This document shows positions 34,962-39,554 of a stretch of 64,000 bases of DNA, in pieces. This DNA is from Candidatus Avelusimicrobium vaccinum. GTDB lineage: Bacteria > Elusimicrobiota > Elusimicrobia > Elusimicrobiales > Elusimicrobiaceae. A program made the position numbers and the translations under genes. The notes below the pieces were generated by a model, which did not search any database, was not told the origin of the DNA, and saw only the letters and a list, made by a program, of their open reading frames with translations. The DNA lies in the NCBI GenBank assembly GCA_902794895.1, contig CADBIY010000002.1, positions 137,660-201,659 on the forward strand, given 5' to 3'. Position 1 is the stretch's first letter. Every line of letters begins with the position of its first letter.

Positions 34962-36029
34962 CTATAGCAAAATCATTAACAATAAAAAATATCCCGTCAT
35001 CAACACCAGGCCGGTGGGAACCGCAATCCGCGCCCATTCACGGCTTTTAATGCCCAATTTTTCCGCGGCTACGATGTTAGGAAGATTTCCTTGCACGAGC
35101 ATACTTCCAAAAGCCGCCAGGCCGATTACCATATAAATAAGATCGCGGTGGGAAATAGTGGGAACGATTTCAATAGCCGCCAGGGTAGCATTATCGATAA
35201 TCACAGAAACTGCATTGGCCAAAAATAACACTTTCCCGCCCAGATGCGTAATCGTACTTTGGGCCAAAGGCCGCAACCCGGTGCTGATTAAATTTAAGGC
35301 AGCAACGAACATATAAATATGCCAGGTACGGCGCATCATAGAAGCATATGTTTCTTTATCTTCTTGGATTTGCATAGAAACCGTTGATCCCGCATTCCGT
35401 GCGGTGTAACCGGCCGCCAGGGCCAAAAGCGTAATAGCCGGGGCAATCCACCAAAAGAAATTCCGCAACAAGAAAAAGAAATCGGCATTATGCGGCGGAC
35501 CGGCTAACGCACTGTTTATTACCAAGCCCATAGGTTCCGCCAGCGGAGAGAGTACTGCCCCCAGCCCAATTGCATAGCAGGCAAATACTGTAATGCGCAA
35601 AGTGGATTCTTTTTCTAAATTTACAACTTTTAACACCTCCGCCAGTAACAATGCCGAAACGGTAACGCTTACTAAAGAGGAAGTCATCCCTAATATAAAA
35701 ATCAAAATCGCAAAACTATACCTCGGTTCAAATTGCTTAAAAAACGCAAATAAAATACGGAAAATATACCGTGAATAATTATTAAAAATCAAACTGACTA
35801 CCAATACAATAAAAGCCACATTTACCGGATATTGCAATGTTTGGTAAATAAAGTCTACACTCCAACCGCCGCTCACTGTAACGGCCGCAACGCCTATCAT
35901 TAAAAGGAAAATTTCCAAATGGCTCTCTACCCAGCGCGAAACTAGCGGCCACACCAGTAAATTGAGGCCGATAATTCCTAATAGCACATTGATCCACCAG
36001 GGAGTAGATGTAAATACAAGGTCTTCCAT
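34962..36029 (-). CDS. DUF1646-family transporter (ion-transporter superfamily)
   Basis: A 355-residue polytopic protein with about ten membrane helices. GMTSSLVSVTVSALLLAEVL and AIGLGAVLSPLAEPMGLVI, and SVIIDNATLAAIEI in the second half, are the paired re-entrant-like motifs of the DUF1646/NhaD-like group. It may exchange sodium and protons or carry organic acids; the substrate is not predictable. Confidence 0.75.
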   Translation of the reverse strand: MEDLVFTSTPWWINVLLGIIGLNLLVWPLVSRWVESHLEIFLLMIGVAAVTVSGGWSVDFIYQTLQYPVNVAFIVLVVSLIFNNYSRYIFRILFAFFKQFEPRYSFAILIFILGMTSSLVSVTVSALLLAEVLKVVNLEKESTLRITVFACYAIGLGAVLSPLAEPMGLVINSALAGPPHNADFFFLLRNFFWWIAPAITLLALAAGYTARNAGSTVSMQIQEDKETYASMMRRTWHIYMFVAALNLISTGLRPLAQSTITHLGGKVLFLANAVSVIIDNATLAAIEIVPTISHRDLIYMVIGLAAFGSMLVQGNLPNIVAAEKLGIKSREWARIAVPTGLVLMTGYFLLLMILL

Positions 36030-36155
36030 ATTTATTTATTTTACAAAAAAACATACGCGCTTGGCTTTTTGCAACTGATTAAATTTTTAAACGGTTTGTG
36101 AGACAAATATTGTAAAATAAAGAAGTAAGAAGTTTGAAATTATAAGGAGAAAAAC

Positions 36156-36776
36156 ATGAAAAAAGTACTTGCATTTGCATTTGCCCTCGGCCTGGCGGCT
36201 TTGCCCAGCTTGGCCAATGCCGCTGAAGATTGCGGCTGCGCAGCCATGGATGTAACTTGTGTAAATAACTGCACATTATCTAAAATCAGCACGTTGCGCA
36301 AAAATATTGAAACCCAAAAAGCGAACGCTTCTTCCCGCGTAAAAAATGCGAAAGCCAAAGCAGCCGCGGCAAAACAATCTTCTCAAGACACCTCGGTAGC
36401 CGATGAAGCAAAAGCCAAAGTAGCCCAGGCTAAAGCGGATGCCAAAGCGGTGGCTAAAGCCAAAAAAGAAGAGGCTAAAGAAAATGCCAAACAAGCCAAG
36501 GCCGATGCTAAAGCCCAAGCCAAGGCCCAAAAGCAAGCCGCAAAAGAACGTGCTGCCCAAGCCAAAGCCGATGCCAAAGCCAAAAAAGAAGAGGCTAAAG
36601 CCCAAGCCAAAGCCCAAAAAGCAGCTTTAAAACAAGCAAAAGCAGATGCGAAAGCAAATGCTGCGGCCAAAAAGGCTGAAGCCAAAGCCAAAAAGGCTGA
36701 AGTAAAACAAGCGGCAAAAGATGCCAATAAAGCATTTAAAGAAGAAAAAGCCGCTTGGAAACAATTAGTTAAATAA
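36156..36776 (+). CDS. Periplasmic Lys/Ala-rich coiled-coil protein
   Basis: A 206-residue protein. Signal peptide MKKVLAFAFALGLAALPSLANA, then a short Cys-rich domain (DCGCAAMDVTCVNNC) and a long, almost uninterrupted Ala/Lys/Glu/Gln helix with repeats such as AQAKADAKAK. It is very basic. It could bind peptidoglycan, DNA or another envelope polymer, as TolA- and histone-like repeats do. AAGGAG precedes the ATG and a strong terminator follows. Confidence 0.75.
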   Translation: MKKVLAFAFALGLAALPSLANAAEDCGCAAMDVTCVNNCTLSKISTLRKNIETQKANASSRVKNAKAKAAAAKQSSQDTSVADEAKAKVAQAKADAKAVAKAKKEEAKENAKQAKADAKAQAKAQKQAAKERAAQAKADAKAKKEEAKAQAKAQKAALKQAKADAKANAAAKKAEAKAKKAEVKQAAKDANKAFKEEKAAWKQLVK

Positions 36777-36790
36777 ATTAAGTTACGAAT

Positions 36791-36826
36791 AAAACTCCCC
36801 CTGCGTGTGCAGGGGGAGTTTTATTT
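36791..36826 (+). terminator. Terminator of the coiled-coil protein gene
   Basis: AAAACTCCCCCTGC pairs with GCAGGGGGAGTTTT around a GTGT loop, a 14-bp stem. Confidence 0.9.
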
Positions 36827-36840
36827 GTAACAATATAAGC

Positions 36841-36863
36841 AGTGTATTAAGAAAACGAGTCAA
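36841..36863 (-). promoter_or_regulatory. Relic of a pilin promoter
   Basis: On the minus strand TTGACT and TACACT are only 11 nt apart, with flanks like those of the pilin promoter at 37560-37587. With such a spacer it should be dead. It may be the scar of a lost neighbouring pilin gene. Confidence 0.5.
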
Positions 36864-36899
36864 GGCCCTTATCTTTTCTGCCGATTTTAATTCAATGGA

Positions 36900-37523
36900 T
36901 TATCTGTAGCGTGTTAGACAACGGCAACTTCCGTTACAACCGGGGATCCAATTATCGTTTCCTATCCGTTGCTCGCATAAAAAATCTCCCTCATAATTGC
37001 TGTTCGCATACGAACAACATGTTTCCTTTCGGTCTGCATACCATTCTTGTAATACTACAAAGGCCCCTTGTTGCGCTTGCCCTTTCCAAGTAAGGGAACA
37101 AGATACCCCTTTGCGATTTTCAGCAACGGGTTTCCCCTGCGAATTTATCGGCGCTGTTAACTGACAATAATGATATTGATCTGTCAAAACTTCAATATCC
37201 AAATCGCTTAGGTCGTTCGCATAAACATTATTTTCTAAAAAATAAATCTCTTGAGCCTTTAAAATATTATCTGCATCAAGTTCAAGTTGTGTAAACCGGG
37301 ATTTGATGACTGCTTTTTGATATTGCGGCAAGGCAACACTTGCTAAAATTCCAATAATCAACACGACCACTAATAATTCAATGAGCGTAAATGCCGCATG
37401 GTTATTACATAAAGTCCTTCCGTACTTGATACGGAATCTCTCCGCTGTTAAACAGCAAGATCCCAAATCAAGTTTGGGATGACGACATACTTGGGCTAAC
37501 CGGCCTGTATTTTGATTTTTCAT
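36900..37523 (-). CDS. Type IV pilin with an unusually long leader
   Basis: A 207-residue protein. The start at 37523 has AAGGAG 5 nt upstream. The pilin signal is AAFTLIELLVVVLIIGIL, but it begins at about residue 44 instead of residue 6-10. The extra leader (RHPKLDLGSCC, ERFRIKYG) is the translation of a palindromic DNA element (37412-37486). After the helix come a YQKAVIKSRF stretch and a globular end with several Cys. The prepilin peptidase may still cut before Phe. A run of 12 A in its promoter spacer suggests phase variation. Confidence 0.85.
   Translation of the reverse strand: MKNQNTGRLAQVCRHPKLDLGSCCLTAERFRIKYGRTLCNNHAAFTLIELLVVVLIIGILASVALPQYQKAVIKSRFTQLELDADNILKAQEIYFLENNVYANDLSDLDIEVLTDQYHYCQLTAPINSQGKPVAENRKGVSCSLTWKGQAQQGAFVVLQEWYADRKETCCSYANSNYEGDFLCEQRIGNDNWIPGCNGSCRCLTRYR
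37412..37486. repeat. Palindromic element inside the pilin leader
   Basis: Three back-to-back hairpins: TTCCGTA/TACGGAA (37418-37436), GCTGTT/AACAGC (37444-37456) and ATCCCAAA/TTTGGGAT (37460-37480). The unit resembles protein-coding palindromic repeats known from Rickettsia and others. It is in frame with the pilin gene. Confidence 0.7.
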
Positions 37524-37559
37524 ACACACTCCTTGTTTTTAAATGGTAACAACAAGCGT

Positions 37560-37587
37560 AGTGTATCAAAAAAAAAAAAACAAGTCA
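37560..37587 (-). promoter_or_regulatory. Pilin promoter with a homopolymer spacer
   Basis: TTGACT (37582-37587) and TACACT (37560-37565) on the minus strand are 16 nt apart; 12 of these are a T run (A12 on the + strand, 37568-37579). Gain or loss of a base would change the spacing and thus the strength. Start codon 37 nt downstream. Confidence 0.75.
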
Positions 37588-37694
37588 AGACCCTCTCCGG
37601 TTTCCGCAGAACGCGACTGACGATTACCTGCCAAACTCTTTCACAGCAAACCGCAAATAGGATAAACAGGGAAAGTATCCAAACGAAAATCTAC

Positions 37695-38444
37695 TTATTT
37701 CCACAGTGTTTTGGCCGCCATATCATACATAATAATACTGGCCGCAGCAGAAGCATTTAAACTGTCAATTCCGTTTTGTTTTTGCGGAATAGAAATAATT
37801 TCATCACAATTTTCTGCTGTTTTTTCGCGGATTCCAAAACCTTCCGACCCAATTACCAGTACCGCCGGAGCGGCATACGTCATTTGGGTAATGGGTTTTC
37901 CGGCCATATCCGCACCGTAAATCCAGAATCCTTCTTCTTTTAAATCATTTAATGCCGCGGACAAATTGGCCACTTCTACAATGTTAATATTCTCAATAGC
38001 CCCGCAGGCCACCTTATAAACAGCCGGAGTAATGCCCACGGTCCGGCGGTGCGGCAAAATAATCGTGGAAAAGCCTAAACAGGCCGCACTGCGGATGATG
38101 GCCCCTAAATTTTGAGGGTCGGTCATCTCATCTACGGCAAGCCACAGTTCGTTTTTTCTGCCGTCGGCTTCATAAATAGCGTTGGAAAGTTTCATCAGTT
38201 TAATAGGCTGAATTTTAGCCATAACTCCCTGATGATTTGCCTGACGGGTTAAGCGGTCTAATGTTTTATTATCAATGCGGTCAATTTTAACATTGGCACG
38301 TTTGGCCAAACGGATGATTTCTTCCACCGCACGGTGCCCGGCCTTACTGTCCGATACAAACAACTGGGTAACGTTTCTTTTTTTACTGCGAAGTGCTTCT
38401 TGGACGGGGTGAATCCCGTAAATCATATCTAAATTTTCATTCAT
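37695..38444 (-). CDS. rlmB: 23S rRNA 2'-O-methyltransferase RlmB
   Basis: A 249-residue SpoU-family protein. It starts YGIHPVQEALRS, the N-terminal RNA-binding domain. The knotted methyltransferase part has DPQNLGAIIRSAACLG, VIGSEGFGI and NGIDSLNASAAASIIMYD. It methylates the ribose of G2251 (E. coli numbering). It follows pfkA by 9 nt in the ispH-pfkA-rlmB run. Confidence 0.9.
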   Translation of the reverse strand: MNENLDMIYGIHPVQEALRSKKRNVTQLFVSDSKAGHRAVEEIIRLAKRANVKIDRIDNKTLDRLTRQANHQGVMAKIQPIKLMKLSNAIYEADGRKNELWLAVDEMTDPQNLGAIIRSAACLGFSTIILPHRRTVGITPAVYKVACGAIENINIVEVANLSAALNDLKEEGFWIYGADMAGKPITQMTYAAPAVLVIGSEGFGIREKTAENCDEIISIPQKQNGIDSLNASAAASIIMYDMAAKTLWK

Positions 38445-38453
38445 ACGAACTCC

Positions 38454-39554
38454 TTATCCAATTACGGAAGAGCCAAAACTCATACCTACTTCCAGTGCAC
38501 TTTTCACTTCGGCTCCGTGGGGATCCACTCGTTTTAAATTTGCAATCGCATCGGCAATTTTAACTTCAGCCATTTTAAAATCGCGGAACGCCGCCATAAA
38601 TCCAAATTTTTCCTCCAGCACCATATCCAATGCTTTCGCACCGTATAAAGTAGATAACCAACGGTCAAAAGCGGTCGGCGTTCCGCCGCGTTGGGTATGA
38701 CCTAACACACACGCACGGGATTCTATCCCGGTTTTACTTTCAATCATAGCACTTAATTTATTGGCAATCCCGCCCAGACGGATTGCATCCGTGCTTCCGG
38801 CAACCGTGCGGGCAATGGCTTGTTCGCCTTGTTCATTTTGGGCACCTTCCGCCGCCACCACAATGCTAAATGTTTTTCCTTTGCTTTTACGGTTTAAAAT
38901 ATAGTTCACAATCACATCATCATTGTAGGGAATTTCGGGGATTAGCACAATATCTCCGCCGCCGGCAATCGCAGCGCGTAATGCGATCCACCCGGCATAC
39001 CGGCCCATGGTTTCTACAATCATCACCCGGTGATGACTTTGGGCCGTAGTGTGCAAACGGTCAATGGCCTCGGTAGCAATGGACAAAGCCGAATCAAAGC
39101 CGAATGTTTGGTCCGTGGCGGATAAATCGTTATCAATCGTTTTGGGAACCGCCACGATCGGCATACCTAATTCAACAAACTGCTGTGACATATGCAACGT
39201 TCCGTCTCCGCCGATGGTAATTAAAGTATCCAACTGGTTTTCCTTAAAATTATGCAAAGCAACACTCGATAAGTCTCGCGGATTGTCCGGCGTACCGAAC
39301 GGAGCCAATGTATATTTAAAGGGATTGGCTATATTACTGGAACCTAAAATAGTTCCTCCCAACGTTAAAATACCGGATACCGTCTGCGGTGTAATTTGAA
39401 TAAATTCATTGCGGACAAGTCCGTCAAAACCATTTTTAAAGCCTAACACTTCAATCCCACGCTGTAAGGCATTTTTGCTGACGGCACGTACCACCGCATT
39501 GAGGCCTGGGCAATCACCGCCCGCTGTTAAAATTCCGATTTTCTTAATACTCAT
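38454..39554 (-). CDS. pfkA: 6-phosphofructokinase
   Basis: A 366-residue protein. GGDCPGLNAVVRAV and GGDGTLHMS form the nucleotide site; PKTIDNDLSATDQTFG holds the catalytic TIDND. The Gly in GGDG fits ATP use, while the Lys in PKTIDND is typical of pyrophosphate-linked and group III enzymes. The phosphate donor is therefore unclear. Its start lies inside the end of ispH (11 nt overlap). Confidence 0.9.
   Translation of the reverse strand: MSIKKIGILTAGGDCPGLNAVVRAVSKNALQRGIEVLGFKNGFDGLVRNEFIQITPQTVSGILTLGGTILGSSNIANPFKYTLAPFGTPDNPRDLSSVALHNFKENQLDTLITIGGDGTLHMSQQFVELGMPIVAVPKTIDNDLSATDQTFGFDSALSIATEAIDRLHTTAQSHHRVMIVETMGRYAGWIALRAAIAGGGDIVLIPEIPYNDDVIVNYILNRKSKGKTFSIVVAAEGAQNEQGEQAIARTVAGSTDAIRLGGIANKLSAMIESKTGIESRACVLGHTQRGGTPTAFDRWLSTLYGAKALDMVLEEKFGFMAAFRDFKMAEVKIADAIANLKRVDPHGAEVKSALEVGMSFGSSVIG

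Follow-up and report, generated by a model that had tools for sequence, protein, structure and literature searches.

Homopolymers within promoter spacers are known from single genes or small gene families of pathogens. Phase-variable promoters of surface genes include those of porA, with a poly-G tract, of the Bordetella fim genes, with poly-C, and of the Haemophilus hif genes, with a TA repeat. In Mycoplasma hyorhinis, a homopolymer lies upstream of the -10 element in each promoter of the vlp multi-gene family of surface proteins, and its length switches in clones; the Vlp system also appears in the reference list of PMC11868660. In the nspA promoter of Neisseria meningitidis, a one-base change of the A-tract alters expression, and phase variation is rare or absent (PMC6389960). 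An AT-tract placed ahead of the -10 element has a stimulating effect on sigma70 promoters of E. coli (PMC7229825, Warman et al. 2020). Here we report the analysis of a pilin promoter whose spacer consists mostly of T residues, located in a 64,000-nucleotide (nt) stretch of contig CADBIY010000002.1 of Candidatus Avelusimicrobium vaccinum (Elusimicrobiaceae), hereafter the window, and of the related pilin promoters in this genome, its genus, its family and its order.

The window promoter and its T tract

On the minus strand, from 37588 to 37560, the promoter reads TTGACT-TG-TTTTTTTTTTTTT-GA-TACACT, where TTTTTTTTTTTTT is a run of 13 T. This homopolymer (37568-37580, A13 on the plus strand) forms the bulk of the 17-nt spacer between the -35 hexamer TTGACT (37583-37588) and the -10 hexamer TACACT (37560-37565). 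The two hexamers match those of sigma70 promoters at 9 of 12 positions, the spacer falls within the range of 16-18 nt, and a TG at 37568-37567 of the same strand precedes the -10 hexamer to give an extended -10 element (TGN-TACACT). An earlier sequence-only reading of this DNA had recognized the homopolymer and both hexamers but miscounted the former as A12, the distance between the hexamers (37588-37583 and 37565-37560) as 16 nt, and the site as 37560-37587 instead of 37560-37588. It had rightly placed the single-base tract within the -35/-10 spacer, where tract length determines spacing, and its assignment of the promoter to a pilin gene is borne out. The downstream gene (36900-37523, minus strand; 207 amino acids from the ATG at 37523) encodes a type IV pilin-like protein with a prepilin methylation motif, which scores above the cut-offs of both PF07963 N_methyl (32.4 bits; cut-off 21.2) and TIGR02532 (27.4 bits; cut-off 16.3). 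It is preceded by a Shine-Dalgarno-like AAGGAG (37529-37534, minus strand) that is also found in paralogs of the same genome.

The T13 tract is the longest homopolymer of the window, the next A/T run having 8 bases. Taken on its own it is only mildly surprising, because about 0.26 runs of at least 13 A or T are expected per 64 kb under a first-order Markov model. Chance is far exceeded by the placement of the tract in a promoter and by its recurrence at pilin promoters, both genome-wide and genus-wide.

Pilin promoters with homopolymer spacers

The phosphofructokinase gene has its closest matches in uncultured Elusimicrobium / Elusimicrobiaceae MAGs (metagenome-assembled genomes), many of which come from the guts of animals. 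The genome carrying the window (1.45-Mb assembly, 99% complete, 30 contigs; window on contig C2) has 58 pilin-like genes, about 25 of which possess promoters of the type TTGAC-n-T(7-17)-GATA with spacers of either 11-14 or 15-19 nt. Runs of at least 10 T occur at 17 sites when both strands are considered, and 16 of them are spacers of pilin promoters, the T run in each being on the strand that codes for the pilin; for one of these 16 the gene is cut by a contig end, and the run was assigned by the identity of its promoter to that of a pilin paralog. The remaining run lies at a contig end. The dinucleotide content of the genome predicts about 103 A/T runs of at least 10 (first-order Markov model) against the 17 observed, and long runs are therefore depleted elsewhere and retained at pilin promoters. 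The T tract as a general promoter feature was rejected for this genome on the 16 of 17 runs found at pilins, and also for a second species (G004), in which the sampled tracts that seemed unrelated to pilins were mostly poly-A pilin promoters on the other strand. A second promoter group in the window's genome combines T7-T8 tracts with spacers of 11-14 nt and pilin reading frames that are mostly open. In this genome, short spacers showed no significant association with pilin genes that are broken or missing (4/10 vs 1/15; Fisher p = 0.12).

Within the genus, most of the 66 genomes have the T-tract promoter. Elsewhere in the family it occurs in part of the genomes of one further genus, and the 59 genomes of the order's other family all lack it. 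T-tract sites checked in four further species lie before a pilin motif in 83 of 88 cases. Across the 66 genomes, the number of T runs of at least 11 correlates with the number of pilin candidates (Spearman 0.83) and shows no significant correlation with genome size. Such runs reach about 200 per genome, G004 having 195 together with 236 pilin candidates at first look. The pilin family itself is extremely expanded in G004 and G020, with about 236-251 candidate pilin-like genes in genomes of 1.5-1.7 Mb. Sampled pilin genes of G004 have promoters of the form TTGACATCG-T11-GCTACATT or TTGACAAATC-A11-CGATAATAAA, and both forms would have a 16-nt spacer if, as we read it, the -10 element of the A11 type is GATAAT.

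Tract lengths were tallied over the listed sites of 18 genomes (435 sites, after a few rows resembling unrelated promoters had been dropped by eye). Among the 423 pure tracts there are 315 T12, 41 T11, 20 T13, 17 T10, 11 T8, 7 T9, 6 T14, 4 T7 and 2 T15; thus 74% have exactly 12 bases and about 25% depart from this length. The spacer measures 16 nt at 314 of the 435 sites (72%). Only 12 sites (about 3%) have interrupted tracts, and all 12 keep a spacer of 16-18 nt. The small excess of T8 over T9 could mean that tracts shrunk to 8 bases stop slipping, although the numbers are small. Lengths are spread in the window's own genome (T7-T17) and in small samples from G003 and G005 (T11-T17), and sampled tracts of G004 nearly all have 11 bases. 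The -10 elements of relatives vary among TAAATT, TACAAT, TACACT and TACATT, and from one species to another the types of linker and -10 element change, the tract length remaining constant.

Orthologous promoters were compared in eight syntenic pairs from six loci of G014, G043 and G044, whose upstream regions align over about 800-1100 nt with 74-85% identity. No substitution was found within any tract, whereas most pairs have changes in the linker of two bases; selection or some biased process must therefore preserve the purity of the tracts, and their length stays near 12. In five of the eight pairs both tracts are T12. The species representatives are mostly consensus sequences of MAGs, one assembly per species, in which length mixtures within a population are hidden, and some of them have N gaps inside the tract. 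The predominance of T12 with a 16-nt spacer, the T12/T12 pairs and the spacing of the interrupted tracts show stabilising selection on spacing and not free switching. On these comparisons, pilin promoters of Elusimicrobiaceae have been selected for a spacer of pure poly(dA:dT) with a set length.

In G014, G043 and G044 (L239-L298), many pilin ATG codons lie about 6 nt past the -10 element, and leaderless messenger RNA is expected. An inverted repeat of 11-12 base pairs (bp), GATAAATTTTG..CAAAATTTATC, spans the -10 element and the start codon in these species, and four sites with GATACATT carry the matching AATGTATC arm. The repeat looks like a shared, putative operator.

Surroundings of the window pilin gene

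Upstream of the pilin gene lies a gene for a SpoU-family ribosomal RNA (rRNA) methyltransferase (RlmB-like; 37695-38444, minus strand; PF00588, 141.6 bits), whose position is syntenic in relatives without the pilin cassette. On the other side, a gene on the plus strand (36156-36776) encodes an Ala/Lys-rich repetitive, secreted-looking protein, which has no match in Pfam or NCBIfam and keeps its position in the nearest relatives. We sought an ortholog of the tract 3' of the rRNA methyltransferase gene in the nearest relatives, and the pilin cassette is absent at that place; the orthologs compared above are accordingly from other pilin loci. Only about 80 bp, with no pilin, separate the methyltransferase gene from the Ala/Lys-rich gene in the closest two relatives (L098 and L099), so that the window pilin and its promoter were either gained in this genome or lost in those two.

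Downstream of the pilin gene, a decayed second copy of its promoter (TTGACTCGTTTTCTTAATACACT, spacer 11; 36841-36863, minus strand) has no pilin gene behind it, and a terminator-like 23-bp inverted repeat (36782-36831, plus strand) lies between this copy and the Ala/Lys-rich gene. The prepilin leader of the window pilin contains a palindromic in-frame insert (approximately 37412-37487, minus strand) that encodes RHPKLDLGSCCLTAERFRIKYGR and lies 5' of the A/FTLIEL cleavage site. Similar inserts are present in three further pilins of the same genome (G000 C25:14056, C2:42371 and C7:36361) and in pilins of G004 (L322, L327 and L328). Peptides of the type CHSKLDLES...ILNQVQDD extend the prepilin leader directly ahead of the GFTLIEL cleavage site in several pilins, and in more than one species, and the insert resembles protein-coding palindromic repeats known elsewhere. 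An Rfam search of window positions 36000-38500 gave no matches.

Tract length, slippage and known systems

At a probability of roughly 0.5, we propose that selection constrains the length of the tract as a promoter spacer and that slippage occasionally retunes single pilins. Elusimicrobiaceae would accordingly possess a pilin-specific promoter class whose -35/-10 spacer is almost wholly a pure poly(dA:dT) homopolymer. Selection would hold the tract near T12 and the spacer at 16 nt (T13 and 17 nt at the window site), with a sigma70-type RNA polymerase recognizing an extended -10 element and performing best at 16-17 nt. Replication slippage would sometimes add or remove one base and so lower or retune that one pilin, heritably and reversibly, and pilin paralogs would thus drift in expression level independently of each other. 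The resulting variation would serve as a slow multi-locus volume control and not as a fast ON/OFF switch. Slippage occurs at pilin tracts, as the quarter of tracts off T12 indicates; that the promoters are active, that length sets expression and that the variation is useful we infer. The homopolymer itself may be of some value, because an interrupted tract of equal length would be stable, and a fixed-length poly(dA:dT) spacer can also have a direct effect, because A/T stretches 5' of the -10 element stimulate E. coli sigma70 promoters (PMC7229825). More tentatively, the whole pilin repertoire, which ranges from dozens of genes up to about 200 in a genome of 1.5 Mb, may be placed on slip-prone A/T spacers, with every level drifting and resetting around a selected 16-nt spacing.

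Several points weigh against this proposal. Its steps of active promoters and tuning derive from the comparison of sequences, and its spacing rules are those of E. coli, applied to an uncultured phylum. Consensus MAG sequences hide length mixtures within populations. In E. coli, transcription is stimulated whatever the A/T sequence of the tract (PMC7229825), so that a structural role would not by itself call for purity. Finally, the promoters with T7-T8 and 11-14 nt spacers, whose pilin genes are mostly open, are unexplained if short spacers are simply dead.

The strongest competitor, although we regard it as somewhat less probable, is a purely structural or regulatory element: promoter strength, or a pilin regulator, would depend on a rigid spacer of poly(dA:dT), selection would fix how long it is, and slippage variants would be no more than mutational load. 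It agrees with the sharp T12 mode and the species-typical length (mostly T12, T11 in G004), the 16-18 nt spacing kept in interrupted tracts, the mostly T12 orthologs, the strong depletion of homopolymers elsewhere in the window's genome and the AT-tract stimulation known in E. coli (PMC7229825); the operator-like inverted repeat over the -10 element and start codon of three related species likewise suggests coordinated regulation. Yet an interrupted tract would keep such stimulation and escape the slippage load, whereas only about 3% of tracts are interrupted, and about 25% are off the mode. A mere copying artefact, through duplicating and spreading pilin cassettes with their promoters or through homopolymer collapse in assemblies, is very improbable. 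Dozens of near-identical promoters in G027 and the missing window cassette at the same place in the two nearest relatives would fit it, but it is at odds with syntenic orthologs (flanks about 74-85% identical) whose tracts remain pure although their linkers have changed, with the variety of -10 elements and linkers among species of constant tract length, and with the additional use of poly-A in G004.

The sequence-only reading had called phase variation likely, with slippage by one or two bases shifting the spacing past its optimum and so switching pilin levels. In the classical form of such variation, single pilins would be switched quickly ON and OFF by slippage as a contingency repertoire. 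As at contingency loci, a long pure repeat stands at a surface-structure gene where its length could alter expression, and tracts of a hypermutable type stay pure at one multi-copy family of surface-structure genes in particular; the use of A as well as T homopolymers, the spread of lengths in the window's genome and in the G003 and G005 samples, and the N gaps within tracts of MAGs would also fit such switching. Free switching should scatter lengths, however, and about three quarters of the sites in 18 species have T12 and a 16-nt spacer, syntenic orthologs are mostly equal in length (five of eight pairs T12/T12), and the sampled G004 tracts nearly all have 11 bases. This narrow distribution disfavours frequent ON/OFF switching, which we consider unlikely. 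The premise of slippage survives in the length variants among paralogs and orthologs and in the conserved purity of the tracts; phase variation at pilin tracts is possible, although 'likely' is too strong a word for it. The suggested parallel was with surface genes of several pathogens; the present organism, uncultured and described from MAGs, lives in the gut and is no known pathogen.

Literature searches on pilin phase variation in Elusimicrobiota returned nothing relevant, and none of the papers found in the library searched mentions the pilin tracts. Here, in an uncultured gut phylum, a large share of a huge pilin family has such tracts, which are all but absent from other places; they keep to a single set length and come in a T and an A version. 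Thousands of tracts thus amount to natural data on two questions: the way in which selection can keep a hypermutable element from changing length, and a possible diversification of pilus composition by slippage in commensals. The pilin tracts resemble the vlp system of M. hyorhinis in that a multi-gene family of surface proteins carries promoter homopolymers upstream of the -10 element; vlp genes encode lipoproteins and switch length in clones, whereas here pilins of an unrelated phylum have up to about 200 loci per genome, with lengths seen in assemblies and centred sharply on 12 (11 in one species). With porA, Bordetella fim and Haemophilus hif they share a repeat between or near the -35 and -10 elements of surface genes, which there alters spacing or promoter strength, but those repeats have other bases or units, few loci and lengths that vary among strains. 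The nspA promoter likewise has an A-tract directly 5' of the -10 element of a surface protein gene, whose level is set by one base; it is a single gene with a short A5/A6 tract and at most very rare phase variation (PMC6389960), in contrast to the family-wide 12-base tract described here. Finally, the spacer AT-tract element that stimulates sigma70 transcription is also an A/T-rich stretch upstream of the -10 element (PMC7229825), whereas the pilin tracts are conserved pure homopolymers and belong to one gene family, whose promoters have canonical -35 and -10 elements.
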